Positions 20,825 to 58,899 of a stretch of 64,000 nucleotides of DNA are shown piece after piece. How positions within the stretch are numbered: the first letter of the stretch is position 1; each line of letters begins with the position of its first letter. Source of the DNA: Azoarcus sp. L1K30. GTDB taxonomy: Bacteria > Pseudomonadota > Gammaproteobacteria > Burkholderiales > Rhodocyclaceae. The notes under the pieces were generated by a model. That model did no database searches. It was given only the letters and a program-made list of their open reading frames with translations, and was not told the DNA's origin. The stretch is from positions 220,706 to 284,705 of the forward strand of contig NZ_JAGRRD010000001.1 in the NCBI RefSeq assembly GCF_018122735.1, given 5' to 3'. Made by a program: the position numbers and the translations under genes.

Positions 20825-20841
20825 TGTGCGCACAGCGAACA
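20825..20841. promoter_or_regulatory. Type 1 palindromic operator (site C)
   Basis: TGTGCGCACAGCGAACA; read on the other strand this is TGTTCGC-TGT-GCGCACA, identical to the site before tctC and one base from the site before the second iclR gene. It lies 164 bp upstream of the dctP-aroQ pair. I infer an IclR-family operator. Confidence 0.65.
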
Positions 20842-21004
20842 ATGGCGGGGGTCTCGTTATCGCCGCTGGACATGGAGGCTGTATCGTTTGCGTGCTTGCA
20901 TGGCTGTGGGGACAAGGATTTCCGCGGCGATGCGTGGATGGCAGTGGCAGTCTGTTTCTGACGACCTCCATGCCGAAACCAGAAAACAACCGGAGACAAA
21001 TTCC

Positions 21005-30525: not shown

Positions 30526-30659
30526 TGTCTTCTCCATGATGCGATGCTCCGCATTCCTTACAGGGACGTCCGGATCGATGATCCGGCGGACGTACCTTTC
30601 CCCTCCACGCAGGCAGGCGCCTGTGCGGATCGGTCGCAAGGGTCGAGGAGCGAAAGGTG

Positions 30660-35518: not shown

Positions 35519-35612
35519 GCGTTCAGCGTTCCATATTGTTGACGTGGCAAGGAAATGAAATGGGGGCAGTGCCGACTGCACACTGACCCCATTGATCGTT
35601 CTGCGAGCTTGA

Positions 35613-37609: not shown

Positions 37610-37688
37610 GAGAGTCTCCGGACGTTTGTTGTTGTTTTGTTTTATGAACTGGGCGCCACGGTCCTGGCGACCGTGGCGCACCGAGGCA

Positions 37689-38675
37689 TCAGGGCTTGGG
37701 GATGCCGAGCTCTGCGGGCGATACCTTGGCTACGCCAGCATCCTGATAGACCCAGGCCGTCACCGACTGCCAGCGATCGATGAACTTGCGTGCCTCGTCG
37801 CCGGAGAGGTTCAGCATCACGTTGCCGCGGCCTTCCATCATTTCCTTGTAGGTCGGGTTGTCGACCGCCTTCTTGAAGGCCGCAGCGAGCTTCATCTTGG
37901 CGTCGTCGGGTACGTCGTTCTTGACGAAGATGCCGAAGAACGAGCCCCACGGCACGTATTTCTCGAGGCCGGGCAGCGCTTCGGTCATCGGGGGCGCACC
38001 GTTGTAGGGCTTGGCATCGAGTACACCGAGCACTTTCAGACGACCGGCCTTGATGTGTTCCTGCACAGCACCGGCCGCGATGAAGCCGAAGTCGACGTGT
38101 CCGCCGAGCATTGCGGTAATACCGGGGCCGTCACCGTCGAAGGGGACCGGCGTGACCGGGAACTTGGTCAGCGAGGTGATCATCGCGCTCGTGGTGAAGG
38201 GTACCGAACCCGTACCGGCGGTGTACATCTTCACCGCGCCGGGGTGGGCCTGAACGTCGGCAAGCAACTCCTTGAAGTTGGTCCATGGCTTGTCCTTGTT
38301 GGCGACCACCAGCACGTTGGCACGCGAGATGACATTGATCGGGTAGAAGGCCTTGTAGTCGAAGTCGGCCAAGCTCATGACCTTGTACAGGGCAGGGTTC
38401 TCGGCGCCGGCAAGGAAGGTATAGCCGTCCGAAGCCTGTTGCTGAACGAAGTTGGCGCCGATTACGCCCACACCGCCCGGCTTGTTCTGCAGCACGATCT
38501 TCTTGCCCAGGGCCTCTTCCGCGTAGCTCACCATGCCGCGGACGGCGACGTCGGTCGCACCACCTGCACCCCACTGGATCACGCCCGATACTTCACGCTC
38601 GGGATACTCGGCAGCCGCCATCGTGCTGAGCAGGGTCAGTGCAGCCGCGCCAAGGAACTTGGAATAGTTCGACAT
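37689..38675 (-). CDS. tctC: Tripartite tricarboxylate transporter substrate-binding protein
   Basis: This 328-residue Bug-family binding protein has a signal peptide (residues about 1-22, SKFLGAAALTLLSTMAAA) and the typical IQWGAGGATDVAVRGM, NKPGGVGVIGANFV and the Asp/Gly-rich ligand loops. AGGAGA precedes the ATG. It leads the tctCBA-TIM-flavoprotein 2 unit, which has a type 1 operator about 215 bp upstream. Confidence 0.92.
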   Translation of the reverse strand: MSNYSKFLGAAALTLLSTMAAAEYPEREVSGVIQWGAGGATDVAVRGMVSYAEEALGKKIVLQNKPGGVGVIGANFVQQQASDGYTFLAGAENPALYKVMSLADFDYKAFYPINVISRANVLVVANKDKPWTNFKELLADVQAHPGAVKMYTAGTGSVPFTTSAMITSLTKFPVTPVPFDGDGPGITAMLGGHVDFGFIAAGAVQEHIKAGRLKVLGVLDAKPYNGAPPMTEALPGLEKYVPWGSFFGIFVKNDVPDDAKMKLAAAFKKAVDNPTYKEMMEGRGNVMLNLSGDEARKFIDRWQSVTAWVYQDAGVAKVSPAELGIPKP

Positions 38676-38744: not shown

Positions 38745-38890
38745 CATACCGCTTGAAACTGATCTTCAACTTCAGGGGCGGGCCCAAAGACCCGCTTTGT
38801 CAGTCCCTCTGACCGCCGTCTTGGCGAGTTTCAGGTTTGACTGCACTCTAGTCTCGACGACCCCCGGACGTTTGCGCCACCAGGGCAATG

Positions 38891-38907
38891 TGTTCGCTGT
38901 GCGCACA
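38891..38907. promoter_or_regulatory. Type 1 palindromic operator (site B)
   Basis: TGTTCGC-TGT-GCGCACA matches the sites before dctP-aroQ, before the second iclR gene and before the VOC gene. It lies just downstream of the first iclR stop and 216 bp before tctC. A second dyad, AATTGA-N5-TCAATT (38910-38926), adjoins it. Confidence 0.65.
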
Positions 38908-38932: not shown

Positions 38933-39739
38933 TCAGGTCTTCGAATGCGTTCTGAACAGGCTTGACGACTGGTGGCTCTGGCCCATTTCGATGGCCGTTT
39001 GCTGCAGTTCGGGCGCGATCGCCCGCATTCGATCTTCCGAAAGCCGCGCACTCGGACCGGAGACGCTGAGCACGCCAATGACATCCTTCGTCTGCGGGTG
39101 TCGCACTGCAACCGCAATGGCGGCAAGACCGGGCTGGGAACTGTCGATTACAAGTGCATAACCGCGCTTGCGTGCTTCGTCGAGGCGTTTCAGCACATCC
39201 TTGAGCGTGTGTGGCGCGTTTGGACCAAGGTCGGGGCCGTTTGCGATGCCCTGGCGCGAGACCAGTTGCAAGGCGTCTTCGTCGCTCAGGCACGCCAGCC
39301 ACGCGAAACCCGTTGCGGTGCACGACAGTGGCGCCGTCTTACCCATGTCGGGGTCGTAACGCAGCCCCTGGTGCGCGCCCTGGGCCTTGCCGACCCAGAC
39401 CTGACGCTGATCCGGCGGGTCGCCGTCTATGACGCTGAGGCGTACGAGCTCGCCGGTCGACGCGGCGAGACGATCCATGAGCGGCTGCACCAGATCGCTA
39501 ATGCCGCTGCCGGCCAGGTATCCCAGCGCGACCGAGAGCAAACGCGTGGTGAGCATGTAGTGGGCGCTCGCGGCGTCCTGACGCACGTATCCGTACTCGG
39601 CAAGCGATGCCATGAGGCGGTGTGCTGCACTTTTGGGCAGGTTGAGCGAATCGGCGACATCCTGCAGGGCGATACCGTGCGGATGTTCTGCGAGGAGCTC
39701 GAGTGCGCCAAGTGCGCGAGAGATAAGTGATCCGGCCAT
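38933..39739 (-). CDS. IclR-family regulator 1
   Basis: A 268-residue IclR protein: winged HTH at residues 1-65 (LISRALGALELLAEHPHGIALQDVAD, PKSAAHRLMASLAEYGYV) and the GAF-like effector domain (about 80-255, with LSCTATGFAWLACL and the IAVAVRHPQTKDVIGVLSVSGP core). It is divergent from flavoprotein 3 and upstream of tctC in the same direction. A TGGAA-N5-TTCCG dyad in the divergent gap is the likely operator. I infer control of flavoprotein 3 and its own gene. Confidence 0.88.
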   Translation of the reverse strand: MAGSLISRALGALELLAEHPHGIALQDVADSLNLPKSAAHRLMASLAEYGYVRQDAASAHYMLTTRLLSVALGYLAGSGISDLVQPLMDRLAASTGELVRLSVIDGDPPDQRQVWVGKAQGAHQGLRYDPDMGKTAPLSCTATGFAWLACLSDEDALQLVSRQGIANGPDLGPNAPHTLKDVLKRLDEARKRGYALVIDSSQPGLAAIAVAVRHPQTKDVIGVLSVSGPSARLSEDRMRAIAPELQQTAIEMGQSHQSSSLFRTHSKT

Positions 39740-40001: not shown

Positions 40002-41771
40002 ATGTTGAAGGATATTGATCATATCGAGAATGGGGCCACGTTCGACGTTGTCGTCGTCGGCGCGGGCGGCGCGGGAATGTCGGCGGCGCTGTTTGCGGCG
40101 ATCGATGGTGCGAAGGTGCTGTTGATCGAGTCGACCAGCCATGTCGGGGGGACGACGGCCTACTCGGGTGCAACCACATGGATTGCGGGAACACGCCATG
40201 CCGCGAAAGTGAATCCCGAGGACTCGCTGAACAATGCCCGAACCTTTCTCGATCACGCGGTTGGGCAGCGATCCGACCCCGCGGTGCGCAAGGCATTCCT
40301 CGACAACGGCGCCGAGGCGGTGGCAAAGATCGAGGACAATTCGCACGTCAAGTATCGACCGCGGGACTTCCATCCGGACTATCTGTCCGAGTTGGCCGGA
40401 TCGACCGTCTGCGGTCGGGCGCTGGAACCCTATCCGTTCGATGGCCGTCTGCTGGGTGAGGATTTCGCGCTGATCCGCCCCCCCATCCCGGAGTTCACCG
40501 TGCTCAACGGAATGATGGTGGACCGCGACGACATCCTGCAGTTGATGGCGTTTCTCAAGAAGTGGTGGGGCTCCTGGTCAACCTTCAAGTACGTGACGCG
40601 GATCATGCTGCGGCATGTCGGCGATCGACTGCGCTACCCGCGTGGCACGCGTCTCGTCATGGGCAACGCGCTGATTGGCCGCCTGCTGCTTTCGCTGCGG
40701 GAGCGCGGCGTGACCCTGATGACTGAAACGCGCGTGACCGACATGACGCGCGGTGCGGATGGCGTCGATGCCGTGACGCTGACGAAGAACGGCAAACAGC
40801 GCACGATTCGCGTCAAGGGCGGCGTCATCATGGCCAGCGGCGGATTCAATCGCCATCCGGCACGCCGCGCACAACTGATGCCGGGTGCCGATGTCGCGTG
40901 GTGTCCGGGGGCGCCCGGTCATACCGGTACCATGCACGATCTGGCTGAAGCGGTCGGCGCACGCTATGGCGAAGGGGAACTGAGTCCGTGCTTCTGGGCG
41001 CCCGTATCGGTGCGCAAACGGGCTGACGGCACGCAGGCCGTCTTCCCCCATTTCGTGTTCGATCGTGCCAAGCCCGGCATGATGACGGTGAATCAGGAAG
41101 GTCGGCGGTATTACAACGAGTCCATCTCGTACCACCTTACCGGCATCACCATGCAGGAAGCGAACAGGCGGACGCCATCGGTGCCGTCCTTTCTCGTGAC
41201 CGATGCGGAGGGGATGCGCAAATACGGAATGGGTATGGTGCGTCCGAACAGGATGGGTCTGCGCGAAGCGCTGGCGGAAGGTTATGTGGTGATGGGCCGC
41301 ACGCTCGACGAACTGGCGCACAAGCTCGGGGTGAATGCGGCCAATCTGAAGCAGGCGGCTGCCGACATGGGGCGTTTTGCGGCGACCGGCGTCGACGAAC
41401 AGTTTCAGCGCGGCACGACCACCTATCAGCGTGCCAATGGGGATGCCAACTGGCGTGGTCCCAACCCGAGTCTGGGGCCGATCGAGCAGGCGCCGTTCTA
41501 CGCCGTTCGCCTTTATCCGGGTGACATTGGCGCGGCAAAGGGCTTTCTCACCGATGGCCTGGCACGTGCGCTCGACCGCGACAACAGGCCGGTGCCCGGG
41601 CTCTATGCAGTGGGCAATGATCAGCAGTCGATCATGGGGGGAACCTATCCCGGCCCGGGCATTACCCTCGGGCCCGGCCTCGTGTTTGCCTATCTGGCGG
41701 CCAAGGACGCGCTGGCGCGGGCCCGAGGGGAAGGCGCTGCCGGTTCGGAATCGTCCGCCATGGCGGCCTGA
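40002..41771 (+). CDS. KstD-like FAD-dependent dehydrogenase 3
   Basis: A 589-residue member of the same superfamily and the most divergent of the four. FAD motif VVVVGAGGAGMSAALFA, VGGTTAYSGATTWI and the C-terminal GLYAVGNDQQSIMGGTYPGP block are present; the last repeat reads ITLGPGLVFAY instead of AMTFGY. A strong GGAGGAGA precedes the ATG. An SDR gene follows after 15 bp. The pair could oxidise a ring alcohol to a ketone and then desaturate it. The substrate is unknown. Confidence 0.87.
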   Translation: MLKDIDHIENGATFDVVVVGAGGAGMSAALFAAIDGAKVLLIESTSHVGGTTAYSGATTWIAGTRHAAKVNPEDSLNNARTFLDHAVGQRSDPAVRKAFLDNGAEAVAKIEDNSHVKYRPRDFHPDYLSELAGSTVCGRALEPYPFDGRLLGEDFALIRPPIPEFTVLNGMMVDRDDILQLMAFLKKWWGSWSTFKYVTRIMLRHVGDRLRYPRGTRLVMGNALIGRLLLSLRERGVTLMTETRVTDMTRGADGVDAVTLTKNGKQRTIRVKGGVIMASGGFNRHPARRAQLMPGADVAWCPGAPGHTGTMHDLAEAVGARYGEGELSPCFWAPVSVRKRADGTQAVFPHFVFDRAKPGMMTVNQEGRRYYNESISYHLTGITMQEANRRTPSVPSFLVTDAEGMRKYGMGMVRPNRMGLREALAEGYVVMGRTLDELAHKLGVNAANLKQAAADMGRFAATGVDEQFQRGTTTYQRANGDANWRGPNPSLGPIEQAPFYAVRLYPGDIGAAKGFLTDGLARALDRDNRPVPGLYAVGNDQQSIMGGTYPGPGITLGPGLVFAYLAAKDALARARGEGAAGSESSAMAA

Positions 41772-46072: not shown

Positions 46073-47935
46073 TCAGGCTGTCCGTGACTGCGGACGGGGG
46101 ACGGCATTCGTCGTGGGTTGAGCGCGTTGAGGGGAGTGGGGCATGCCGCTGTCGTTCGCGTCTGCGGCGGTCACGTCGGTGAGGTCAATGCCTGCTGCAT
46201 GATGGGCGGAGATGTAGCCAAAGGTCATCGCCGGGCCGAGGGTGATGCCGCCGCTCGGGTAGCGCCCCCCCATCATGCTCGACATGTCGGCGCCGCAGGC
46301 ATAGAGCCCCGGAATGGCGGCCCCTTTGTCATCGAGCACGCGCGCGTTGGCGTCGGTGCGAAGGCCGGCGAAGGTACCGAGGCTTCCGGGAACGACCCGC
46401 ACCGCGTAGTAGGGCCCTTGCTCGATCGCGGCCACACAGGGATTGGGTTCGAAGTCGGGGTCGCCCTGCACGCGGTTGTACGGTGTGTCGCCGCGCCCAA
46501 ATGCGGGGTCGCGACCATGGCGGGCGTCGGCGTTGTAGATGTCGATGGTCGCCATGAGTGCCGCAGCGTCGATACCACAGGTGCGTGCCAACGCGCCGAT
46601 GCTGTCTGCACGACGCAGATAACCGGTGCGCAGGTGTGCACGCAACGGAAACGGCGCCGGCCGAACACGCCCGAGACCATATCGGCGGATGAAGCGGTGG
46701 TCGCAGACCAGCCAGGCTTCGGCCTTGTCGCCCGCGCGTGTGACCCCAAACAGGGCGGTGATGAAGTCGTAGTACGATCCTGCCTCATTGACGAAGCGCC
46801 GCCCCGCCCGGGTGACGGCGATGAGGCCCGGCTTGGCGCGTTCGATCAGGTGTGGAAAATGTCCTGTGCTGCCATCGGCGCGGGGCACGAGCGAGACGGG
46901 TGCCCATGCCGCTGCTGCGTAGAGGTCGGACGAGACCGTACCACCAGCCGACTCTCCCAGACGCAGGCCATCACCGGTGTTGCTGAAGGGCGCGGCGGAC
47001 CAGTGTTCAGTGCCGGTCGGCGTATGTGGGAACAATGATCTTGCACGTGCCGGGTCGTGCGGAAAACCGCCAGTCGCGAGCATGACGCCGCGGCTGGCGC
47101 GGATCTCGATTTCTCTGCCCGCAGTACGCACACGTGCGCCGCAAACCTTGCCGTCTGCGCTGATCAGGTTCTCGACCGGACTGTCCGTGCGCAACTCAAC
47201 GCCGAGATCGACGGCCGATCGTATGAGGCGGGCGATCAGCGCATTGCCGTTGGTCAAGTGCATGCCACGGCGGTGAAGCAGCAAATCCTTGAAATGCACG
47301 AGCACGCGCCGGGCGACATGTGCAAAGGACGGCCATGAACGCATGCTGTTCATGAAGTGGCGCAGGTCTGCACCCGAGGCGATACCCATTCCCCATGGCG
47401 AAATCAGGTCGAGCGGCGGGCGCAGACGATGGATATCGTCGCCCAGTTCGCGGCCATCGAAGGGCGCTGCACAGACCGAGCGTCCGCCCTTGGCGGCACC
47501 CGCCTGCTTGCCGTGAAAGTCGGGAATCAGGTTGCCATCGACGAACTGAACCGCGGTGTTGCGGCGGAAAAAATCGATCATGCGCGGACCGTGCTCGAGA
47601 AAGGCATCGACACGGCGGGCATCGTAGTGGTCGCCGAGTTCGTTGCGCAGATAGGTGCGCGGCGCGTCGGGCGTTTCGACGATTCCCGCTTCAACCGCGA
47701 GCGGATTGCGGGGAATCCACAGCCATCCGCCCGACCAGGCGCTTGTCCCGCCGAGTGTCGCCGCCTTCTCGACCACCAGCACCTTCAGGCCCAGGTGTGC
47801 GGCCACGACAGCACTCGAAAGTCCGCCCGCGCCGGAGCCGACGACCAGCAGGTCGACTTCGGTGGTGTGTGTGTCGTGTATTGCCTGCACTGTCTTGAGC
47901 AACCTTGTCCGAATTCGGTGGTGATGCGTGCGCAT
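46073..47935 (-). CDS. KstD-like FAD-dependent dehydrogenase 4
   Basis: A flavoprotein of up to 620 residues with FAD motif LLVVGSGAGGLSSAVVAA, LGGTSAWSGGWLWIPRNPLA and the C-terminal LYACGADMSSMMGGRYPSGG block. It is the closest relative of flavoprotein 2. The N-terminus is uncertain: the first ATG is at 47935, but a GTG at 47890 would give a length nearer that of its paralogues and has AAGG upstream. A proline- and threonine-rich tail of about 40 residues after the last motif is unlike the others. Confidence 0.85.
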   Translation of the reverse strand: MRTHHHRIRTRLLKTVQAIHDTHTTEVDLLVVGSGAGGLSSAVVAAHLGLKVLVVEKAATLGGTSAWSGGWLWIPRNPLAVEAGIVETPDAPRTYLRNELGDHYDARRVDAFLEHGPRMIDFFRRNTAVQFVDGNLIPDFHGKQAGAAKGGRSVCAAPFDGRELGDDIHRLRPPLDLISPWGMGIASGADLRHFMNSMRSWPSFAHVARRVLVHFKDLLLHRRGMHLTNGNALIARLIRSAVDLGVELRTDSPVENLISADGKVCGARVRTAGREIEIRASRGVMLATGGFPHDPARARSLFPHTPTGTEHWSAAPFSNTGDGLRLGESAGGTVSSDLYAAAAWAPVSLVPRADGSTGHFPHLIERAKPGLIAVTRAGRRFVNEAGSYYDFITALFGVTRAGDKAEAWLVCDHRFIRRYGLGRVRPAPFPLRAHLRTGYLRRADSIGALARTCGIDAAALMATIDIYNADARHGRDPAFGRGDTPYNRVQGDPDFEPNPCVAAIEQGPYYAVRVVPGSLGTFAGLRTDANARVLDDKGAAIPGLYACGADMSSMMGGRYPSGGITLGPAMTFGYISAHHAAGIDLTDVTAADANDSGMPHSPQRAQPTTNAVPRPQSRTA

Positions 47936-47996
47936 GTCGAGGACCAACGACCACGTTCGTCCTGCGCGGGGGGCTTGTGGAGCGCGCGGCGGGTGT

Positions 47997-48888: not shown

Positions 48889-49009
48889 GTTAAAACTGCA
48901 ACACGGTCCTGTTCCCATTCGGGCATTGCGTTGGAAACCGGTTTTCGGCGATGGTGATGTCGTGGCGCGCCCGGATGGGGGGGCTGATTGAGATCAAGGA
49001 GACGGATCG

Positions 49010-49645
49010 ATGCGCATGGAGGCGGTCATCTTCGATTGCGATGGCACGCTGGTCGATAGCGAGGGGCTGGCAGTGGAGGTGATCGTCGGCTTGCTCGACG
49101 AGCGCGGAATCCGTCCGGGTTACGACGCCCTGATGGCCCGTTTTCACGGCGGGCAGTTTTCCGTGTTCGTTGACGCGTTGTGCCAGGACTATCCAACGAT
49201 TGACCCCGCGACTTTTACCGCCGAGTTTCGCTCGCGGACGCAGCGTGTTTTTCGTCGCGATCTGAAAGCCATGCCGGGCGCACGAGCGCTCGTGTCCACA
49301 CTCGATATCGAAAAGTGTGTGGCGTCCAACGGTCCGCTCGAGAAAATCGAGACCAGCCTGGGTGCAACCGGACTGCTGCAGTACTTCGACAACCGGATCG
49401 TCAGTGCGTACGAGGTCGGATCGTGGAAACCTGATCCGGGGCTGGTGCATGCAGCTTGTGCGAGCATGGGCGTGCCTGCGGCGCGCTGTCTGCTGATCGA
49501 GGACAGCCTCCCTGGCGTGCGGGCAGGCCTGGCTGCGGGTGTTGCCGTCGCCGCTTTCCGCCTCGGAGCCGACCGCCTGGGTGAGCTGGCACACAAGGTG
49601 CAGATGATCGATGAACTGGCACAAGTCCCCCTCCTGCTCGAGTGA
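49010..49645 (+). CDS. HAD-family hydrolase, phosphatase-like
   Basis: A 211-residue HAD protein of the beta-phosphoglucomutase/YieH group: nucleophile motif FDCDGTLVDSE (Asp9, Asp11), cap domain, CVASNGP motif II, Lys in SWKPDPG and LLIEDSLPGVRAG motif IV. AAGGAGACGGATCG precedes the ATG. It probably removes phosphate from a small sugar phosphate or related metabolite. It is divergent from the second aroE-family gene; participation in the same pathway is possible but unproven. Confidence 0.85.
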   Translation: MRMEAVIFDCDGTLVDSEGLAVEVIVGLLDERGIRPGYDALMARFHGGQFSVFVDALCQDYPTIDPATFTAEFRSRTQRVFRRDLKAMPGARALVSTLDIEKCVASNGPLEKIETSLGATGLLQYFDNRIVSAYEVGSWKPDPGLVHAACASMGVPAARCLLIEDSLPGVRAGLAAGVAVAAFRLGADRLGELAHKVQMIDELAQVPLLLE

Positions 49646-49706
49646 GTGCGTTGCAAGTCGAAGTTTGACCGTGATGTGTTTCGGATGCCCGTGCGGATGC
49701 AGAAGG

Positions 49707-49730
49707 TGTGCGCCGTGCGCACAATTGTGC
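49707..49730. promoter_or_regulatory. Type 1 palindromic operator (site D) with overlapping dyad
   Basis: TGTGCGC-CGT-GCGCACA (49707-49723) has the same perfect arms as site A. It overlaps a second perfect palindrome, GCACAATTGTGC (49719-49730). The combined element lies 165-188 bp upstream of the VOC gene, in a 249-bp gap that contains no gene. Confidence 0.6.
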
Positions 49731-49894
49731 AAGCACGGGTGCCCGGGTAAGCTGTTCGGGCGGGTAAAGTGTCGGCTCGCGCCGCGGTGGTCTTGACGCT
49801 GCGGCGACGTTGGCTGGCGGGACGGATTCGCGTAAATTGGCCTTCGCAGCCTGATGCGGGCTTGTCGGCATATCCCTTTGGCAAAGGTGTTTAG

Positions 49895-50758
49895 ATGACT
49901 TTGGATGCGCTTGCTCCTGATTCGAACAATCCGCTTGGCATCGATGGCGTCGAGTTCATTGAATACATCACCAACAAGCCGCAGGCCCTTGGTGGCCTGC
50001 TGCAGCGTCTTGGATTTGCGCCCATCGCCCGCCATCGCTCACGGGAAGTGATGCTCTACCGGCAGGGGACGATGAATCTGATCGTCAACGCCGAGCCGAC
50101 GGCGACGAATTCCGCCTCTACCTTCCTGTCCGCCGTCGCATTCCGGGTGCGCGACGCGGCGGCGGCGATGAAGCATGCGCTGGCCGCCGGCGCGTGGGAG
50201 GTGCCACGGCGTACGGCAGCGATGGAGCTGAATATTCCTGGCATCCTTGGTAGTGGCGAGAGCGCCATCTACTTCGTCGACCGGTATCGGGATTTCTCCA
50301 TCTACGACGTCGACTTCGTGCCCTTGCCAGGCGTCGACGCCCATCCACCGGCGCTGGGGGGGCTGCACTATTTCGGCCTGGTACAGGCCGTCGGTGAGTT
50401 CCGCAGTGAGGAGTGGATCGAGTTTTACCAGCATCTGCTGGGCTTCAAACTCCTGCCCGAGAGCAGTTTCGTCGGTATCCTGCCCAAGGGCTCCCTGCTC
50501 GAGAGTCCATGCGGCGGTTTCTATTTCCAGTTGATCGAACCGCCGGACGGTGCCGAAGACGTCCTTTGGGATGCCGGTCTGGTGCGGATCGGTTTCGGTA
50601 CGCCCGATGTCCTCGATGCGACGCGGCTGCTCGAACAGCGCGGCATCGTCTTTCTCGATGAAGGCCCGCTGCACCCCGGGGAAAAGGGGGCGTTGACGCA
50701 GGTCTATCTCGAAAGTGTCACTTTCGAGCTGGTGGCCAGCGATGCTGTCAGTGCTTGA
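49895..50758 (+). CDS. VOC-fold protein, 4-hydroxyphenylpyruvate-dioxygenase-like
   Basis: The 287-residue protein has two VOC halves and aligns with the C-terminal part of the fused QuiC in this window (GVEFIEY ... LGFAPIARHRSREVMLYRQG ... LIVNAEP). In the metal-binding half the first His (H158, GGLHYFG) and the Glu (E278, TFELV) are kept, but the second His is replaced by Arg231 (LVRIGFGT for VHHISFT). A functional 2-His-1-Glu iron site is therefore doubtful. A TIM-barrel gene like the N-terminal part of QuiC follows, so the pair resembles QuiC split in two. Function is unknown. Confidence 0.82.
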   Translation: MTLDALAPDSNNPLGIDGVEFIEYITNKPQALGGLLQRLGFAPIARHRSREVMLYRQGTMNLIVNAEPTATNSASTFLSAVAFRVRDAAAAMKHALAAGAWEVPRRTAAMELNIPGILGSGESAIYFVDRYRDFSIYDVDFVPLPGVDAHPPALGGLHYFGLVQAVGEFRSEEWIEFYQHLLGFKLLPESSFVGILPKGSLLESPCGGFYFQLIEPPDGAEDVLWDAGLVRIGFGTPDVLDATRLLEQRGIVFLDEGPLHPGEKGALTQVYLESVTFELVASDAVSA

Positions 50759-50812
50759 TCGACGGGTGGGCGGCTTCGCGCGCATGCGGCCAGCCTGCAG
50801 AGGGAGAAAATA

Positions 50813-51679
50813 GTGGATTTCGATTCGGTCGCGCTCGATACGGGGTCAATGGCTGGGCCACTCGAGGTTCGACTGGAGGCCTCGATCGACCGGGGGTTTC
50901 GCAAGCTGGTGTTCTCGGCGTCGGACCTGGTGAATCATCCCGCCGGCGTGGAAGCGGCTGCCGAACTGGTTCGTCGCAGTGGCGTCGAGGTGCTTGCACT
51001 CAGGCAGCTGAGGGATTTCGAAGGACTCGTCGGCCCGCTCCACCTGTACAAGGTCAATGTCGCACAGGGGCTGATGAATCTGTGCCGGCTCCTCGGCGCT
51101 CCGACACTGCTGGTGTCGGCGAGCACCATTCCGGGCGCACACGAGGACCCCGCCCGCGTGGTCCGCGACCTGGCCAAGCTGGCGACGATGGCGGTGCCGA
51201 AGCGGATCGACATCGCGTACGAAGCTGTTCCTGAATCGAGGGTCGCCGGCGGCATCGTCCGTGCCGAGGATCAGGTGTGCGAGGCCGATCGTGCCAACCT
51301 CGGCGTCGCGATCGACAGTGGCCATCTCTTTACCAGCGACGACGGTCTCGACGCGGTCGATGCCTGCTACGGGCACAAGCTGTTTCTGGTGGGGCTGAGC
51401 GATACCATTGCCCGCGACCCGAACGGGCAGTCGGGTGATCGCGCCGATTTCGTCCGCGTCTTTCCGGGCGATGGCAGTCATGGCGCAGACCTCATCGAAT
51501 TGGTGCGACGTCTGCGCAAGATCGGTTTTCATGGCGGTTTCTATCTGAATGCGACAAACGCCGACTATGCGCAACTGCCGGCCGATTTCGTTGCCGCGCG
51601 CGCCAGCGATGCGTTGATGTGGTTACAGGAACATCTGCGTCACGTCGATTTACCGCGGCGACGTATCCGCGGCGCCTGA
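50813..51679 (+). CDS. QuiC-like TIM-barrel protein 3, metal site incomplete
   Basis: A 288-residue TIM-barrel protein starting with GTG after GGGAGAAAATA. It aligns with the N-terminal dehydratase domain of QuiC. Glu137 (YEAVP) and Asp168 (AIDSGHLF) are kept, but the Gln ligand position reads Gly (FLVGLSD for FVQLAD) and the final Glu position reads Asn (FYLNATN). It may bind metal differently, use the nearby His171, or not be a dehydratase. It is encoded 54 bp after the VOC protein and is probably its partner. Confidence 0.78.
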   Translation: MDFDSVALDTGSMAGPLEVRLEASIDRGFRKLVFSASDLVNHPAGVEAAAELVRRSGVEVLALRQLRDFEGLVGPLHLYKVNVAQGLMNLCRLLGAPTLLVSASTIPGAHEDPARVVRDLAKLATMAVPKRIDIAYEAVPESRVAGGIVRAEDQVCEADRANLGVAIDSGHLFTSDDGLDAVDACYGHKLFLVGLSDTIARDPNGQSGDRADFVRVFPGDGSHGADLIELVRRLRKIGFHGGFYLNATNADYAQLPADFVAARASDALMWLQEHLRHVDLPRRRIRGA

Positions 51680-51711: not shown

Positions 51712-53631
51712 TTATTTCAACGCACTCATGTGCGCGACCATGCGCGCTGGCGCATTGGCGGCGCCGTAGCCGTCGTAGTGATCGACCCGCTGCACGACTT
51801 CGAAGTAGAAGCGCTCGGCAAAGACGTCGGTAAACACGTGAAAGTACTCGCCTTCGGGCGTCCGGTCGTAAAGGATGCCAAGCGACTGGAGTCTGGCGAC
51901 CAAGTCGTCGGCAAGTTCGAATCGGGTGGGCAGGTCGAGATAGTAATTCGGCGAGACGGCAATGAAGCGGACGCCGCGTTGGCGCAAGGCTTCGACGGTC
52001 GCGAAAATGTCCGAGCAGGTAAAGGAGATGTGGTGAACGCTCGCGCCCGCCAGTTGCGTCATGGTCCGGGCCGTGTGCGTGTAGTCGCTTTCGGAGACAT
52101 TAAGGACGAAGCGCAGTTTGCGGTCGTGCGTCGACACACTGCGCGTGCTGATCAGTCCGTAGGGATCGATCAGGTCCATGCTCTCACCGGGTTCCGCCCC
52201 CAGCACCGTGCGGTAGAAGAGGGTCCAGGCATCGTGGCGAAGTCGCGGCAGGCCTTGCGCAATGTGGTCTATCGATCGCAGACCGTCCTGGGTCGCCTCG
52301 GCGGTCAGTTCGTCTTCGAGCAGGAAGTCGATTTCATACAGGCGTTTCGAGCCCTGACTGGACGGTACGAAATAGATCAGGCTGTCGTCCGGTGCGCGTA
52401 TCGCCGGGATCTTCAGTTCATTGGGGCCGATTCTGCCCTCGAATCGAGGGCAGCCGTATGCCGTGGCACGGTTGAGCGCGCGCAGCGACTGTTCCGTGGC
52501 AATGCCCAGCGCGCAGATCGACGGGCCGTGGCGCAGAAAGTGGGTGTGCGCGAACGAGCCCGGTTCGGCATTGAGAATGATGTCGATGTCGCCTTGGCGA
52601 AATAGCGTGACCGCCTTCGAGCGGTGCTTGCCGGCACGCCGGAATCCGAGCATGTCCAGCACCCGCGCGAGCGCGCGTTCGCTATTCGCATCGACGGCGA
52701 ACTCGATGAATGCGAGGCCATCGAGCGCTGGCAGGGCTGGTGGCTTGAACAGTTCCAGATGGTCGGCGGTGGCCTTGCGCCGCGCGTCGAGGGCTGCGTC
52801 GTCGGTGGTGTCCGCCAGTCGATGTGCTACGGCCTCCTCGAGATAGAGCAGAGACCGGTATGCATCGATTGCCGTTGGCCGCGCAGGTGCCGCTCGGAAG
52901 TGATCGTTGAAGATCTCGAGCGATAACGGGCCGGTATAGCCGGCGAGCAGGATCTGTTCGAGAAAGTTGGGGAGGTCGAGCTGACCCTGTCCCGGGAAGC
53001 ACCGGTAGTGGCGACTCCATTGCAGTACGTCCATATCCTTGACCGGCGCATCTGCAAGCTGGACAAAGGCAATCTTGTCGCCGGGAATATCACGAATGGC
53101 GGCTGGATCGTCACCGAGCGACAGAATGTGGAAACTGTCGAGCAGAATCCCCAGATGCGGATGGTCGGCCTCGCGTACGAGTTTCCAGGCATGTTCGTAG
53201 TGACGGACGTGCCGTGCCCACGCCAGCGCTTCGAACCCGATCGAGATGTTCCGTTTCGCCGCGCGCTCCGCCAGCGCGTAGAGCTGAGCCGTTGAGCGCG
53301 CATCGTCGGCGATTGCGTCCGGTGCGCAACTGGAACATACCAGCAGCATCGTCGCGCCGAGCGCCTCCATCACATCGAACTTGCGTTCGACGCGGTCCAG
53401 ATTGCGTCTGAATTGGGCGTCGCTCGCGCCTTCGAAATCCCGGAACGGCTGATACAGGTCGATGACCAGCCCCAGTTCGTCGCAAATGCGGCGTACGTCG
53501 TGCGCCGAGCCGTGATAGGTATTGAAGTCGTTCTCGAAGATCTCGACCGCATCGAAACGCGCAGAGGCGATCGCTTCGAGCTTTTCCTCCAGGGTTCCGC
53601 TCAGGCAGACGGTGGCAATGGCGCGGCGCAT
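51712..53631 (-). CDS. quiC: 3-dehydroshikimate dehydratase fused to HPPD-like domain
   Basis: The 639-residue protein has an N-terminal TIM-barrel dehydratase (about 1-290) with the four metal ligands of QuiC enzymes, Glu134, Asp165, Gln191 and Glu239, and a C-terminal double VOC domain (about 303-639) like 4-hydroxyphenylpyruvate dioxygenase. The VOC iron ligands are also intact (SIDHIA, VHHISF, FYFEVV). Length and layout match the fused QuiC of Pseudomonas. It converts 3-dehydroshikimate to protocatechuate; the role of the VOC half is unclear. GGAGAACCCCACC precedes the ATG. It lies in one unit with dctQM, aroE and uspA. Confidence 0.93.
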   Translation of the reverse strand: MRRAIATVCLSGTLEEKLEAIASARFDAVEIFENDFNTYHGSAHDVRRICDELGLVIDLYQPFRDFEGASDAQFRRNLDRVERKFDVMEALGATMLLVCSSCAPDAIADDARSTAQLYALAERAAKRNISIGFEALAWARHVRHYEHAWKLVREADHPHLGILLDSFHILSLGDDPAAIRDIPGDKIAFVQLADAPVKDMDVLQWSRHYRCFPGQGQLDLPNFLEQILLAGYTGPLSLEIFNDHFRAAPARPTAIDAYRSLLYLEEAVAHRLADTTDDAALDARRKATADHLELFKPPALPALDGLAFIEFAVDANSERALARVLDMLGFRRAGKHRSKAVTLFRQGDIDIILNAEPGSFAHTHFLRHGPSICALGIATEQSLRALNRATAYGCPRFEGRIGPNELKIPAIRAPDDSLIYFVPSSQGSKRLYEIDFLLEDELTAEATQDGLRSIDHIAQGLPRLRHDAWTLFYRTVLGAEPGESMDLIDPYGLISTRSVSTHDRKLRFVLNVSESDYTHTARTMTQLAGASVHHISFTCSDIFATVEALRQRGVRFIAVSPNYYLDLPTRFELADDLVARLQSLGILYDRTPEGEYFHVFTDVFAERFYFEVVQRVDHYDGYGAANAPARMVAHMSALK

Positions 53632-53660: not shown

Positions 53661-54083
53661 TCAGCGCAGCACCAGGACGGGGACGGTACAGCGCTTGAGT
53701 ACGTCCGCAGTGACGCTGCCCAGCAACAGTTCGCTGACGCCGCGGCGCGCATGAGAGGCCATATGAATGAGGTCGCAGTGGCGCTCCTTCGCCGTACGAA
53801 CGATCTCGTCCGCGGGGGCGTCGCTCTCGACGTAGAAGCATTCGGCGGCCACGCCTTCGGCCTTGGCATTGTCGGCGACGGGGGTGAGGAAGGCGCGCGC
53901 GAGGTCGGCGCGCGCGGCGTTGTCCCGCATTGACTTGCCCAGTCCCTTGGCCACGCCGCTGTCATTGAGGACGTGGAGAACGGTGACGCGCGCGCCGTGG
54001 AGCTTGGCGAACTGGATTGCCTTGAACGCGGCCGCCGTGGATTGTTCCGACCCATCGACGGGTATCAGGATGTGCTTGTACAT
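53661..54083 (-). CDS. Universal stress protein family, UspA type
   Basis: A 140-residue Usp protein: MYKHILIPVDGSEQS start, Ala-rich helices, and the ATP-binding GxxG-9x-G(S/T) motif in MASHARRGVSELLLGSVTADVL. It binds nucleotide and is thought to modulate stress responses. It is set between aroE and quiC with short gaps, so it is transcribed with quinate/shikimate catabolism. Usp genes inside TRAP operons are known in other bacteria. Confidence 0.9.
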   Translation of the reverse strand: MYKHILIPVDGSEQSTAAAFKAIQFAKLHGARVTVLHVLNDSGVAKGLGKSMRDNAARADLARAFLTPVADNAKAEGVAAECFYVESDAPADEIVRTAKERHCDLIHMASHARRGVSELLLGSVTADVLKRCTVPVLVLR

Positions 54084-54105: not shown

Positions 54106-54978
54106 TCAGTTCGACTTGGCGCCGACCATCGACAGGAAATGCGCCCGCATGCGATCCGCGTCCGGTTCGATATCGGTGAAGTGACGGAATGCGCCGACGG
54201 CCTGAAATACAGCCATGCCGCCGCCGTCGAGCGTGGCGCAGCCCTTGGCCCGCGCCACGCGCAGAAGCTCGGTTTCGAGCGGGAAGTAGACGATTTCGGC
54301 GACCCAGATCCGGCTCTCTATCAGTTCAGCCGGCAACGGAAGACCGGGGAGTTTCGCCATGCCCGTTGGCGTGCAGTGGATCAGTCCGTCGGTTTCGGCC
54401 ATCGCGGCGGCGAGGTCGGTACCTGCAACGCAGCGTCCTTCGCCGAAGCGTTCGCACAGACTGGCCGCGAGTACTTCCGCGCGTGACGGGTCGATGTCGA
54501 ACACGGTGAGCTGGCGTGCGCCCAGGGACAGCGCTGCATGGGCGACAGCGGCGCCTGCACCGCCCGATCCGAGTTGCACCACCTTGTCCATGCTGACGCC
54601 CGGCAGTCCGCGACGAAAGCCCTCAGCAAAGCCCGAGCAATCGGTGTTGTGGCCGATCGTGCGGCCATTACGGATGACGACGGTGTTGACGGCGTTGAGC
54701 GCACGGGCTTCGTCCGATAGCTCGTCGAGCAGCGGAACGATCGCCTGTTTGCAGGGGTAGGTAATGTTGAGGCCGGAATAGCCCATCTGGCGCGCGGCCG
54801 TCAGCAACTGGGGCAGGGCGTCGACATCGAGGCCGAGCGGGTCGAGGTCGATCGTCTTATAGACATACCGAAACCCCTGGGCTTCGCCTTCCTGTTCGTG
54901 CATGGCCGGGGTCAGCGAGGCCTGGATGCCGGACCCGATGAGTCCGCAGACGATCGAAGGGTGCTTGGTATTACTCAT
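54106..54978 (-). CDS. Quinate/shikimate dehydrogenase
   Basis: A 290-residue AroE-superfamily enzyme of the catabolic quinate/shikimate (RifI2/QuiB-like) branch, recognisable by LIGSGIQASLTPAMHEQEG in place of the biosynthetic HSxSP signature. Catalytic Lys77 (NITYPCKQ) and Asp113 (GHNTDCSGF) are present; the nucleotide motif is LGSGGAGAAVA followed by VFDID, whose Asp favours NAD. AAGGAGACACAC precedes the ATG. It should oxidise quinate or shikimate to 3-dehydroquinate or 3-dehydroshikimate, supplying AroQ and QuiC. Confidence 0.88.
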   Translation of the reverse strand: MSNTKHPSIVCGLIGSGIQASLTPAMHEQEGEAQGFRYVYKTIDLDPLGLDVDALPQLLTAARQMGYSGLNITYPCKQAIVPLLDELSDEARALNAVNTVVIRNGRTIGHNTDCSGFAEGFRRGLPGVSMDKVVQLGSGGAGAAVAHAALSLGARQLTVFDIDPSRAEVLAASLCERFGEGRCVAGTDLAAAMAETDGLIHCTPTGMAKLPGLPLPAELIESRIWVAEIVYFPLETELLRVARAKGCATLDGGGMAVFQAVGAFRHFTDIEPDADRMRAHFLSMVGAKSN

Positions 54979-55043
54979 GTGTGTCTCCTTGAGTGGCCGG
55001 CCCTCGGGCCGGCCAGGTGTCGGTTCTGCATTGTTCGGTATCG

Positions 55044-56324
55044 TCAGCCGGCGAACCAGCGCGCGGGGATCAGCACGAGTTCCGGGAACATCACCAGTGT
55101 TGCCAGCACCAGCAACTGCGCCAGCAGGAATGGCCACACGCCTCGGACGATGTCGTCCATGCTCATTTTCGCGGTGCCGGCCACCACGTTCAGAACGGTT
55201 CCTACCGGCGGCGTAATCAACCCGATGGAGGTATTGATGATGAAGAGCACGCCGAAATAGACGGGATCGATGCCTGCCTGCTTGATGACCGGCATCAAGA
55301 CCGGGGCAAGAATCAGAATGGTCGGGGTCATGTCCATGCTGGTGCCGACCACCACAATCACGACCATGATGGCGAGCACCAGTAGGGTCGGGCTATCCAT
55401 CAGCGGGGCCAGCAACTCGACCAGCAGGTCCGGCAATTCGGCAACGGTGACCATCCACGACGACACCATCGCCGCGGCCACGAGGAACATCACCACCGAG
55501 GTGGTCTTTGCCGCCGACACCACGACCTCGTAGATCTGGGCAATCTTCAGCTCGCGGTAGATCACGATCGCCACGAACAAGGCATACACGGCAGCAACGA
55601 CCGCAGCTTCGGTGGGGGTGAATATGCCGAACTTGAGGCCGACGATGATGATCAGCGGCAGTCCGAGCGCCCACAGTCCTTCGAGCAGCGCCTGCCGGAT
55701 TTCCCGCGCGGACTTTTTCGGCGCCGGTTCGACGTTCTCGCTGCGCGTGTAGATCCACCAGGCTGCTGCCAGCGCAAGCCCCATCATCAGCCCGGGGACG
55801 ATACCGGCAAGAAACAGCTTTGAAATCGACACGCCGGATGCCACGCCGAAGACGATGAAGCCGATGCTGGGCGGAATGACCGGGCCGATGATGCCGCCTG
55901 CGGCAATCAGGCCAGCGGAGCGCTTCTTGTCGTGGCCGGCCGCCACCATCATCGGCACGAGGAGGGCGGACAGTGCAGCCGCGTCGGCGACGGCCGAACC
56001 GGACAGCGAGGCCAGCAGGCAGGAGGCGAGGATCGCAACGTATCCCAGGCCGCCGCGGACGTGTCCCACCGAGGCCAGCGCGATATTGACGATGCGCTTG
56101 GACAGGCCGCCGACGTTCATGATCTCGCCAGCGAGCATGAAGAAGGGTACCGCGAGCAGCGGGAAGCTGTTGGCGCCGTTGACGAGGTTCTGGGCCACGA
56201 TCTGGGCGTCGAAGAGATCCATGTGGATCATCAGCGCCACGCCCACCAGCAGCAGGGCAAACGCAATCGGGATGCCCAGCGCGATTGTGCCAAGCAGGGA
56301 AGCGAGGAAAATGGTGACGGTCAT
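55044..56324 (-). CDS. dctM: TRAP transporter large membrane subunit (DctM)
   Basis: A 426-residue protein with about twelve helices of the IT superfamily: IALGIPIAFALLLVG, PFFMLAGEIMNVGGLSKRIV, SGSAVADAAALSALLVPMM, GGIIGPVIPPSIGFIVFGV and the late GLITPPVGTVLNVVAGTA. It has its DctQ but no adjacent binding protein. The binding protein at 21005-22015 is of the matching branch and carries the same operator. Position ahead of aroE-uspA-quiC points to quinate/shikimate uptake. Confidence 0.93.
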   Translation of the reverse strand: MTVTIFLASLLGTIALGIPIAFALLLVGVALMIHMDLFDAQIVAQNLVNGANSFPLLAVPFFMLAGEIMNVGGLSKRIVNIALASVGHVRGGLGYVAILASCLLASLSGSAVADAAALSALLVPMMVAAGHDKKRSAGLIAAGGIIGPVIPPSIGFIVFGVASGVSISKLFLAGIVPGLMMGLALAAAWWIYTRSENVEPAPKKSAREIRQALLEGLWALGLPLIIIVGLKFGIFTPTEAAVVAAVYALFVAIVIYRELKIAQIYEVVVSAAKTTSVVMFLVAAAMVSSWMVTVAELPDLLVELLAPLMDSPTLLVLAIMVVIVVVGTSMDMTPTILILAPVLMPVIKQAGIDPVYFGVLFIINTSIGLITPPVGTVLNVVAGTAKMSMDDIVRGVWPFLLAQLLVLATLVMFPELVLIPARWFAG

Positions 56325-56335
56325 GATCGCTTCCT

Positions 56336-56923
56336 TCAGTGCTTGTTGCCGCTGGCGGGCGTTGCGCGGGACTGGTCGGCGTGTGCCTGCTCTTGCTGGA
56401 TGCGTTCGGCTTCTTCGAGGCCGTCGCTGCTCCTGACCATCACCAGTTCGTGTGCGGCAAGCCTGCCACTGAGGATCTGGAAGAGTTCATGGGCCAGAAT
56501 CGCCGCTGCCGATATTCCGAACACGACCCCTACGCCATAGAAGGCCGCCATCGACATGCCGACGGCGGGCGAGGTGACATGCAGGTTGATCATGGACTGC
56601 TGATAGCTGCCGGAGCTGATCAGCCAGCAAACGTAGAGCATCAGTCCGTGACCCAGGGCCAGCGCGGCGCGCTTCGCCAGCGGCGGCAGGCGCACGAGCA
56701 GTGTGTCGACCCCGAGGTGGCCGTGTTCGCGCAGTGCCACGATGGCGCCGATGAAGGACATCCACACGAACATCATGCGGGCCAGCTCCTCTGACACGGT
56801 GATGCCCGAGTTGAAGGCATAGCGCATGACGACGTTGCCGAACACCATGGCAACCATGCCGGTCATGCACAGGAACATCAGGAACTTCAGCAACGTGAAG
56901 TATCCGTCGACAAGCTTTTTCAT
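56336..56923 (-). CDS. dctQ: TRAP transporter small membrane subunit (DctQ)
   Basis: A 195-residue protein with four hydrophobic helices and the DctQ core VMRYAFNSGITVSEELARMMFVWMSFIGA. The tail (EEAERIQQEQAHADQSR) is charged and longer than usual. GAGGAGACAG precedes the ATG. It is the first gene of the dctQM-aroE-uspA-quiC unit, with a type 1 operator about 135 bp upstream. Confidence 0.9.
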   Translation of the reverse strand: MKKLVDGYFTLLKFLMFLCMTGMVAMVFGNVVMRYAFNSGITVSEELARMMFVWMSFIGAIVALREHGHLGVDTLLVRLPPLAKRAALALGHGLMLYVCWLISSGSYQQSMINLHVTSPAVGMSMAAFYGVGVVFGISAAAILAHELFQILSGRLAAHELVMVRSSDGLEEAERIQQEQAHADQSRATPASGNKH

Positions 56924-57055
56924 CTGTCTCCTCGATTGCCTTTTGAGGCTTCTTGGCCATTCGAATGTTCGCGATTGCGGCGTCCCGTGGGACGTCTTTG
57001 GCGTGATTGAACTTTAGGGCTGATACAGCTTGATCGATAGGCTTCAATCGGGCTA

Positions 57056-57074
57056 TTGTGCGCTGTGCGCACAA
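57056..57074. promoter_or_regulatory. Type 1 palindromic operator (site A)
   Basis: TTGTGCGC-TGT-GCGCACAA is a perfect dyad with 8-bp arms, 29 bp before the iclR 2 start and about 133 bp before dctQ. It is the most symmetric of four related sites in the window. Its place beside the iclR gene suggests autoregulation by that protein. Confidence 0.7.
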
Positions 57075-57103: not shown

Positions 57104-57967
57104 ATGAGCGGACCCAGGGACGGTGGTGGAGGCGGCGCGGGGAAACGGGTAGGCGTGTCGTTGCCTGCGGAGCCCGCAGCGGATGTGGCGGAAAGCGCTG
57201 CGGCACGCGCAGGCGACGACACGGACAGGAACTTCGTCACCGCATTGGCGAGGGGGCTCATGGTGATCCAGGCCTTCACCAATCAGGGGCGGGAAATGTC
57301 GATTTCGCAGATCAGCTACAAGACGGGCATCACCCGCGCGGCGGTCCGGCGGTATCTGCACACACTTGTCGAACTGGGTTTTGCACATTGCCATGCTGGC
57401 GTGCGCTACTCGCTCACGGCCAAGACGGTGTCGCTCGGGAACGCCTATCTCTCCGGGAAAACGCTGTCGGGACGTTCGCAACCGGTGCTCGACAAGCTCA
57501 GCGAGACGGTCGGCGAGGCATGCTCGATGGCCGTTCGCGACGGCACGGACATCGTCTATATCACCCGTGCGAAGTCCTCGCGGATCATGTCCTCGTCGCT
57601 CAATGTCGGCAGCCGTCTGCCAGCCTACGCAACATCGATCGGACTGGTTCTGCTCGCTTATCTCGATGAAGCCGAGCTGGCCGACTATCTTGCCGAGGTG
57701 AAATTCCTGCCCTTCACCCCTCATACCATCGTGACCGCCAGCGCGCTGCGGACAGAGCTGGCTGCAATTCGTGCAAACGGCTATGCGCTGGCCGATCAGA
57801 TGATCGAGGTCGGCCTGCGGTCCATTGCCGTTCCCGTCTTCGACCAGGATGGCAATGTCGAGAGCGGCATCAATATCATCGCCAACAGTTCTCGGGTCAG
57901 TGCCGAGCAGATGAGAACGCGATTTCTGCCGCTATTGCTCGACGCGGCCCAGGTGCTGCGGAGCTGA
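57104..57967 (+). CDS. IclR-family regulator 2, PcaR/PcaU-like
   Basis: A 287-residue IclR regulator with a Gly/Ala-rich N-terminal extension of about 40 residues, a winged HTH (about 45-110, NFVTALARGLMVIQAFTNQ ... TGITRAAVRRYLHTLVELGF) and the effector domain (ACSMAVRDGTDIVYITRAKSSRIM, LPAYATSIGLVLLAYL). The pattern is that of the Pca/Pob IclR group, which responds to protocatechuate-pathway compounds. It is divergent from dctQM-aroE-uspA-quiC. I infer that it binds the type 1 palindromes and runs the dispersed quinate/shikimate regulon. Confidence 0.9.
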   Translation: MSGPRDGGGGGAGKRVGVSLPAEPAADVAESAAARAGDDTDRNFVTALARGLMVIQAFTNQGREMSISQISYKTGITRAAVRRYLHTLVELGFAHCHAGVRYSLTAKTVSLGNAYLSGKTLSGRSQPVLDKLSETVGEACSMAVRDGTDIVYITRAKSSRIMSSSLNVGSRLPAYATSIGLVLLAYLDEAELADYLAEVKFLPFTPHTIVTASALRTELAAIRANGYALADQMIEVGLRSIAVPVFDQDGNVESGINIIANSSRVSAEQMRTRFLPLLLDAAQVLRS

Positions 57968-57996: not shown

Positions 57997-58899
57997 TCAG
58001 ATGCCGAGCGCCGTGACGACGGCCTCGAGCTCCGCACGCAACCACGCATGGATGGGGTTGTGGCGGTGGCGCAGGTGCCAGATCATGTACATCGGCAGAT
58101 ACTGCGTCGCGAATGGCAGCGGCGTATGGGCAAGGCCGTGCATGCAGCCGCTGGCCAGCAGGCCAGGCACGGTTGCCAGGCGCGCACTGCCTCGAATGAA
58201 GGCGGGGATGCCGGCAAAACCGGGTACGTGGGCAACGAAGTTGCGCTGTATGCCGCGGGTGGCGAGTTCGTCGTCGAAATCCAGCGTACGGCGGGGAACG
58301 TAACGCACGGTGACGTGCTCGGCAGCCAGAAAATCCGCCAGCGTTGCTGGCGCCTGGCGTTGCCCCGGATCGTAAAAGACACGGTAGCGATCCTGGAACA
58401 GGCGCTTGTGAAGGATGTCGTCGGCTTCCGGCGGGCGGGGCGAAATCACCAGCTGACAGCGCTCCTCGCGGAGCATCGTCGCATCGGGAACATCCGAGGG
58501 GATGACGCCGAGGGTGACGCCGGGCGATTTCTCCCGCAGACGGGTCAGCAGGCGCGGTAGCAGCAGGTCGCGCTGGAAGTCGTTGGCGGCGATGACGAAG
58601 CAGGATTGGAGCGTACTGGCGTCGAAGTTCGCCGTGGTCGCGAAGCGGCGCATTTCCTCCAGCAGCACGCGCGCCTCGCTGGCCAGTGCCTCGGCCCGGC
58701 TGGTGGCGACGATGCCGCGGCCCGACTTCACCACCAGCGGGTCTCCGACGATGTTGCGCAACTTGCCCAGCAGGTGCGAGACGGCCGACTGGGTCACACC
58801 CAGACGTTCGGCCGCGCGCGTGATCGAGCCTTCCTCGACGACTGCGATCAGCAGCTGCAGCAGCTTGCCATCGAGTTGAAAATGATCGAAATTGCTCAT
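57997..58899 (-). CDS. LysR-family regulator divergent from ligAB
   Basis: A 300-residue LysR protein of the NahR/LinR-like type: HTH at about residues 10-70 (LDGKLLQLLIAVVEEGSITRAAERLG ... QSAVSHLLGKLR ... VGDPLVVKSGRG). The frame stays open far upstream across ligAB, but the ATG at 58899 gives normal length. Only 87 bp separate it from ligA, so it very likely controls the ring-cleavage genes. Confidence 0.87.
   Translation of the reverse strand: MSNFDHFQLDGKLLQLLIAVVEEGSITRAAERLGVTQSAVSHLLGKLRNIVGDPLVVKSGRGIVATSRAEALASEARVLLEEMRRFATTANFDASTLQSCFVIAANDFQRDLLLPRLLTRLREKSPGVTLGVIPSDVPDATMLREERCQLVISPRPPEADDILHKRLFQDRYRVFYDPGQRQAPATLADFLAAEHVTVRYVPRRTLDFDDELATRGIQRNFVAHVPGFAGIPAFIRGSARLATVPGLLASGCMHGLAHTPLPFATQYLPMYMIWHLRHRHNPIHAWLRAELEAVVTALGI

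Follow-up and report, generated by a model that had tools for sequence, protein, structure and literature searches.

In P. putida, the regulator PcaR governs the pca genes, responds to beta-ketoadipate or succinate, binds the operator GTTCGATAATCGCAC and acts as activator or repressor depending on the promoter context; activation has been described from upstream boxes, and PcaR of P. stutzeri represses from boxes that overlap the -10 element or lie downstream of it (PMC12455658). PcaR of C. glutamicum, a member of another phylum, recognizes GTTCGC-N3-GCGAAC (PMC8222616, Table 1), and genes for 4-hydroxybenzoate and protocatechuate are listed there as its targets (PMC8222616). In Acinetobacter baylyi, PcaU controls its own promoter and the divergent pcaI promoter, with pcaI-quiA forming an operon; two promoters are known, and putative sites lie near pqq and van genes (PMC4213383). 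The PcaU site is a three-box element, TTTGTTCGATWATCGMACAMA, and the Group 1 operator of the IclR family has the form GTNCG-N5-6-CGNAC (PMC8222616). Suvorova et al. 2021 included a COG set for quinate/shikimate and aromatic transport among the IclR regulogs and named DctPQM as co-occurring transporter subunits (PMC8222616).

The circuit considered here, in Azoarcus sp. L1K30, appears to be a well-supported new example of such a PcaR/PcaU-type IclR regulon. Its proposed regulator, IclR2, has P. putida PcaR (8eju) as its closest solved relative and best PDB match (E 6e-62), and the outer bases of the P. putida operator are those of our site 2, GTTCG-N5-CGCAC; the predicted targets, however, differ from the pca genes. 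The C. glutamicum operator has the arm layout and the spacing of our sites. Likeness to PcaU lies in the regulator type (PcaR/PcaU/PobR), in the predicted control of the own and a divergent catabolic promoter and in the presence of quinate genes in a regulated operon, whereas our sites are mostly of the two-box form GTGCGC-N3-GCGCAC and precede four catabolic units that include TRAP and Tct transport genes. With the Group 1 regulogs that contain quinate/shikimate genes (PMC8222616), the locus has these gene sets and the DctPQM transporters in common. Our literature search found no paper on such a regulon in Thauera or its relatives. The main text of PMC6449761 contains the word 'Thauera' 14 times and 'quinate' not once; that of PMC8222616 contains neither 'Thauera' nor 'QuiR' and quinate once, in the COG set, and its supplementary tables may hold the regulon.

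The window, i.e. the whole stretch of 64,000 nucleotides that was analysed, contains four copies of a 17-bp palindrome, all found at the positions assigned to them in the preliminary description: site 1 at 20825-20841 (+), upstream of dctP-aroQ; site 2 at 38891-38907 (-), upstream of tctCBA-TIM-flavoprotein 2; site 3 at 49707-49723 (+), upstream of VOC-TIM3; and site 4 at 57057-57073, between the divergent genes dctQ (-) and iclR2 (+). Each is an exact match to TGTKCGC-N3-GCGMACA (TGTKCGCNNNGCGMACA), and all four read GTKCG-N5-CGMAC. Two of them had been described as identical over 17 bp, and site 1 is indeed the exact reverse complement of site 2, so that both represent one 17-mer when read towards their target genes; sites 3 and 4, in the target-facing direction, differ solely in the spacer. 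The intergenic position claimed for every site, before a catabolic or transport unit, was borne out for all four by the flanking starts and stops. Site 1 lies between the stop of an AEC-like transporter gene (20775) and the dctP ATG (21005), site 2 between the iclR1 stop (38933) and the tctC ATG (38675), site 3 between the stop of a HAD-type hydrolase gene (49645) and the VOC ATG (49895), and site 4 between the ATGs of dctQ (56923) and iclR2 (57104). Site 4 thus stands just before iclR2 as had been stated, but the gap to the ATG is 30 bp and not 31 bp. A possible third half-site in the manner of PcaU, an external direct repeat of sequence ATTGTGC, was seen by eye downstream of site 3 and not beside the other three. 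In the region of site 3, the open reading frame 48890-50035 (-) was dropped as a gene; it has no family match, and the HAD-type gene 49010-49645 (+) spans much of it.

Short GC-rich palindromes may recur by chance. GCGC-rich oligomers are common in sequence of 62% GC, the pattern matches 14 further places of the genome when one mismatch is allowed (1 place for the reversed control pattern), and at two mismatches the 6 matches in the window are not unusual, since 7 of 100 shuffles reach this number. The exact sites behave differently: in the genome of 4,978,121 bp there are four, all inside one 36-kb stretch of the window, and the reversed control pattern has no exact match anywhere in the genome. 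Exact matches occurred in 9 of 150 sampled family genomes, namely four in the genome under study, three in a genome numbered G139 and one in each of seven others; the 148 genomes other than these two therefore give a background of 7 exact matches. Given that the exact sites are unique genome-wide, are conserved through rearrangement and stand at a fixed distance from a -10-like element (see below), we rejected recurrence by chance, to which we attach a next to negligible probability.

A sequence profile trained on 14 different sites from other genomes placed the four sites at ranks 1-4 in the window, with 20.4-26.5 bits against 9.1 for the next candidate. Genome-wide, a covariance-type profile gave them the same ranks, with E values of 0.011-0.046 ahead of a next candidate at 0.39, when 150 of the 7856 first-look candidates were scored. 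This ranking is supportive and not fully independent, because the training sites had been picked with the earlier consensus at up to one mismatch. The preliminary description had named one outcome as contrary to its proposal, namely numerous matches of equal quality inside unrelated coding regions; the genome-wide check did not show this. Among 27 weaker sites of the genome, 26 overlap an open reading frame of at least 70 aa with coding-like GC bias (a loose criterion), none has the promoter spacing described below and none is convincing as an extra member of the regulon. Weaker members are conceivable, as the profile search scored a part of the candidates, and the regulon of this genome probably consists of these four units and iclR2 only.

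The sites were followed into related genomes, starting from the regulator gene. Homologs of IclR2 at E<=1e-60 were present in 5 of the 150 family genomes, including the one studied here. G139 belongs to a different genus, one that includes Thauera propionica, and has most of the tested cluster genes in another order; it contains exactly three exact sites within 19 kb, located upstream of dctP, in the dctQ/iclR2 intergenic region and upstream of tctC. As these sites stand at orthologous promoters in spite of the rearrangement, they appear to have travelled with their operons. The dctP site and the dctQ/iclR2 site are also kept in G156 and G169; in the latter, the dctP site is exact, the tctC site has one mismatch and the dctQ/iclR2 site has two, both of its end letters being altered. 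Site 3 is not conserved in this way: in G139 and G156 the VOC-TIM3 genes follow dctM2, with no site within two mismatches. An ortholog of iclR2 (E<=1e-70) was found in 6 of 29 genomes of the genus of G139, and the exact motif in those 6 only; the unweighted Fisher probability of this co-occurrence, 2.1e-6, assumes independent genomes, which these are not. G094, from a third genus, has a site with one mismatch between iclR2 and a dctP gene, and in G161, G164 and G166 the genes that follow a site with zero to one mismatch are aroE-quiC, a second dctP or one for a porin. The conserved sites at orthologous promoters support the claim that the four units are joined in one circuit.

The operator before a porin gene in G161 (L103 17022), G166 (L104 3206) and G164 (L091 1501) suggests that the regulon of these genomes extends to uptake across the outer membrane; the porins were assigned by Pfam in G161 and G164 and by eye in G166. 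When 399 genomes of the order were searched, with no more than six candidates scored in any of the genomes listed, no other close IclR2 turned up at E<=1e-85. Two other sampled genomes of the L1K30 genus have neither a close IclR2 (E<=1e-60) nor the exact motif, so the cluster is sporadic; perhaps it moved horizontally.

The regulator candidates encoded near the sites are IclR2 (57104-57967, +), a second IclR-family protein, IclR1 (38933-39739), and a LysR-type protein (57997-58878). The preliminary description had favoured IclR2 as a PcaR-like regulator. IclR2 scores 280.0 bits against TIGR02431 (PcaR/PcaU/PobR), just under the cut-off of 284.75 and far above the next family (143.8), and is best filed as PcaR/PcaU-type. 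It contains both the helix-turn-helix domain (PF09339, 56.3 bits, cut-off 22) and the effector domain (PF01614, 147.5 bits, cut-off 24). The recognition helix TRAAVRR shows no variation among 8 IclR2 orthologs, and its RAAVRR part occurs in P. putida PcaR as well. In 8 of 8 genomes, the 400 bp preceding iclR2 include a GTGCGC-N3-GCGCAC core; the divergent neighbour is dctQ in four of these genomes and another dctP in three. Sites at its own gene, a PcaR-like operator of the Group 1 form in all four cases and the recognition helix in common with P. putida PcaR thus agree with the choice of IclR2.

IclR1 has in its favour that it belongs to the IclR family, that the 3' end of its gene is 25 bp from site 2 and that it adjoins this site in the window, in G139 and in G169. 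We rejected it as the regulator, and rate it as very unlikely, because no ortholog (E<=1e-40) exists in G156, G161, G164 and G166, i.e. in 4 of the 8 genomes with a close IclR2, all of which bear the motif. Moreover, its TIGR02431 score is 121 bits, compared with 280 for IclR2, its recognition helix differs (KSAAHR), and no site within two mismatches lies upstream of iclR1 in the window.

The LysR-type protein deserves more attention, and even so we consider it an improbable reader of the sites. LysR recognition sites have the form T-N11-A and are placed at about -61, with which both the palindrome and its position at about -61 are compatible. Within the genus of G139, lysR and the motif are distributed alike (6/29), for which reason distribution cannot separate it from IclR2; the gene is also present in G094, and the porin sites of G161, G164 and G166 are located directly beyond the 3' end of lysR. 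LysR proteins usually bind close to their own promoter, however, and in 6 of 6 genomes the 400 bp preceding lysR contained no core, nor did the lysR loci of two other genomes (L132, L135) contain a match to it. IclR2 is preferred because of the position of the sites, upstream of iclR2 and not of lysR, and their sequence fits PcaR operators. The lysR orthologs at G139:C1:3630901-3631764 and G156:C23:320452-321315 have one internal TAG each.

Further comparison comes from more distant IclR2-like genes. Those of G042 and G098 (51-52% identity) have the PcaU-type sites GTGCGATAACCGCAC and GTTCGATTATCGAAC upstream, which slightly favours IclR2, but that they have no site with GCGC arms counts against it; their regulator may be a relative with an A/T-rich spacer in its site. 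In both genomes two PcaU-type palindromes, 85 bp apart, stand upstream of the IclR2-like gene (L082 7076 and 7161; L083 6778 and 6863). In five other loci (L030, L036, L038, L042 and L047; 6.4 to 7.3 kb in), four of them from Microbacterium or Agromyces and one from an Actinomycetales MAG, an IclR2-like gene is preceded, at a distance of a few kb, by CGTTCGCANAGCGAACA, which looks like a conserved operator for a different PcaR-like protein. Taken together, we regard it as likely that the four sites of the window are operators of IclR2, which is predicted to activate the four catabolic operons and to repress its own gene.

The gene content behind the sites explains what would be regulated. Site 1 precedes dctP (21005-22015, +), encoding a TRAP solute-binding protein (TIGR00787, 268.1 bits), and aroQ (22158-22595, +). 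Behind site 2, on the minus strand, follow tctC (37689-38675), the receptor of a tripartite tricarboxylate transporter (PF03401, 117 bits; no NCBIfam match), tctB (37109-37681; PF07331, 53.9 bits), tctA (35613-37115; PF01970, 496.5 bits), a TIM-barrel gene (34703-35581, start uncertain; PF01261, 68 bits, and a weak NF042435 match) and, at the end of the unit, the FAD oxidoreductase gene of flavoprotein 2 (32961-34706; NF004789, 967.1 bits). Site 3 is followed by genes for a VOC/HPPD-like protein (49895-50758, +), similar to the C-terminal half of QuiC, and for TIM barrel 3 (50813-51679, +), similar to its N-terminal half. The unit of site 4 runs on the minus strand and comprises dctQ (56336-56923), the small TRAP permease (NF007374, 76.6 bits, under the cut-off of 260), dctM (55044-56324), the large permease (TIGR00786, 487.6 bits), aroE2 (54106-54981), a uspA-like universal stress gene (53661-54083; PF00582, 116.9 bits) that occupies the same place in G139, G156 and G169, and a quiC-like gene (51712-53631) for a 3-dehydroshikimate dehydratase of the TIM barrel and HPPD-like fusion type (PF01261 and PF14696). 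The quiC-like product matches NF042435 over nearly its full length with 771.6 bits (E 5.9e-232), below the cut-off of 1200. The two enzymes required beside it are represented by AroE2, a shikimate/quinate dehydrogenase-like protein of the shikimate dehydrogenase subfamily NF009201 (462.5 bits, cut-off 235), and by AroQ, a type II 3-dehydroquinate dehydratase (TIGR01088, 170.5 bits, cut-off 169.85). Catabolism of quinate or shikimate is the natural reading of this gene content, i.e. of the predicted QuiC-like, AroE-like and AroQ enzymes with TRAP and Tct transporters.

The VOC and TIM3 genes (49895-51679) adjoin the fused quiC-like gene and are possibly a split paralog with a different substrate. 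The cluster also contains four genes for FAD_binding_2-type flavoproteins (28783-30792, 32961-34706, 40002-41771 and 46073-47947), the first of which was assigned by Pfam alone. Three flavoproteins match FAD-dependent oxidoreductases of the PRK06134/PRK12843 type, kin of ketosteroid and 4-oxocyclohexene-carboxylate dehydrogenases, and the set suggests alicyclic-ring dehydrogenation beyond the plain quinate route.

All four promoters of the window have a -10-like hexamer, TANNNT, 40-41 bp beyond the operator and facing the catabolic genes. It reads TATCGT at 20882-20887 (+) for dctP-aroQ, TAGAGT at 38845-38850 (-) for tctC and TAAAGT at 57011-57016 (-) for dctQM-aroE2-uspA-quiC, each at 40 bp, and TAAAGT at 49765-49770 (+) for VOC-TIM3, at 41 bp; at the dctQ promoter, CTARAGTTC is common to G139 and G156, and TACATT stands at the equal offset in G169. 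Across the genomes, the hexamer was found at 40 or 41 bp in 17 of 19 promoters (18 of 20 with tctC of G169), the two exceptions being the porin promoters of G161 and G166, which have CATCAT at 40. The rule was first seen by eye in the L1K30 genome, G139 and G169, and outside this discovery set (G161, G164, G166 and G094) it holds in 6 of 8 promoters; several sites with two mismatches in these four genomes were excluded from the counts. In the controls, TANNNT at 40/41 occurred in none of 17 opposite or second-site orientations, in none of 54 orientations at the 27 weaker sites of the L1K30 genome and, at the seven isolated matches found in genera outside the group, in 1 of 14 orientations (the one being in G040). 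G161, G164, G166 and G094 each have weaker additional sites close to iclR2, and in G161 and G164, the two genomes examined, these do not show the spacing. It was likewise missing at all 19 PcaR-like sites selected in distant loci and at the four PcaU-type sites of G042 and G098, one of which has TANNNT at 42. Because the promoters are partly related by descent, p-values for the spacing are too small and the count of 20 promoters overstates their independence; the four promoters that follow it within one genome belong to different operons.

From the centre of the operator to that of the hexamer the distance is 51.5-52.5 bp, which puts the operator at about -61 from the predicted start, an activator position clear of the proposed promoter, from which activation of the four operons is inferred. 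Autorepression, on the other hand, is suggested by operator 4, which covers part of a weak iclR2 box of the -10 type, TATTGT at 57054-57059 (+), preceded by TTGATC at 57030-57035 with an 18-bp spacer. This box is partially conserved (TTG...CTATTG in G139 and G156, CTATCG in G169), and a consensus promoter scan missed the iclR2 -10 and -35 elements. Ligand-bound IclR2 would accordingly be expected to activate dctP-aroQ, tctCBA-TIM-flavoprotein 2, VOC-TIM3 and dctQM-aroE2-uspA-quiC from about -61, the ligand being an intermediate of the pathway and, if the analogy with PcaU holds, perhaps protocatechuate, and IclR2 on operator 4 would repress iclR2. The preliminary description had proposed no mode of action, and this one, deduced from the arrangement of operators and promoters, is new relative to it.

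IclR2 might instead bind the sites and mainly repress the four operons until a ligand releases it, as P. putida PcaR represses or activates according to the promoter and the position of its boxes (PMC12455658). We think this unlikely, since in 18 of 20 promoters a gap of 40-41 bp separates the edge of the operator from the hexamer downstream of it, so that the operator stays clear of the proposed promoter. In addition, the aligned promoters show by eye no recurring TTGACA-like -35 box at a matching place, as would be expected if they depend on an activator. With a confidence slightly better than even, we go further and propose that a PcaR-type operator, 40/41 bp and TANNNT form a composite module that makes a promoter IclR2-activated from about -61. 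Within this sporadic catabolic cluster, the module is found in front of at least seven kinds of operon (dctQM, dctP, second dctP, tctC, VOC, aroE-quiC and porin); it would amount to a fixed-geometry code of class I activation by an IclR protein, combined with autorepression at the divergent site.

For a Thauera-related bacterium, these results provide the predicted wiring of a catabolic island of the quinate/shikimate type, in which a single regulator would serve four operons through precisely located operators, with starts predicted for each. They also offer a clear spacing rule for a regulator of the IclR family, whose members are believed to activate or repress according to the position of the box. 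Very probably, the four operator copies put the uptake and breakdown of quinate/shikimate-like plant acids under shared control, to be read by the PcaR-like protein IclR2.
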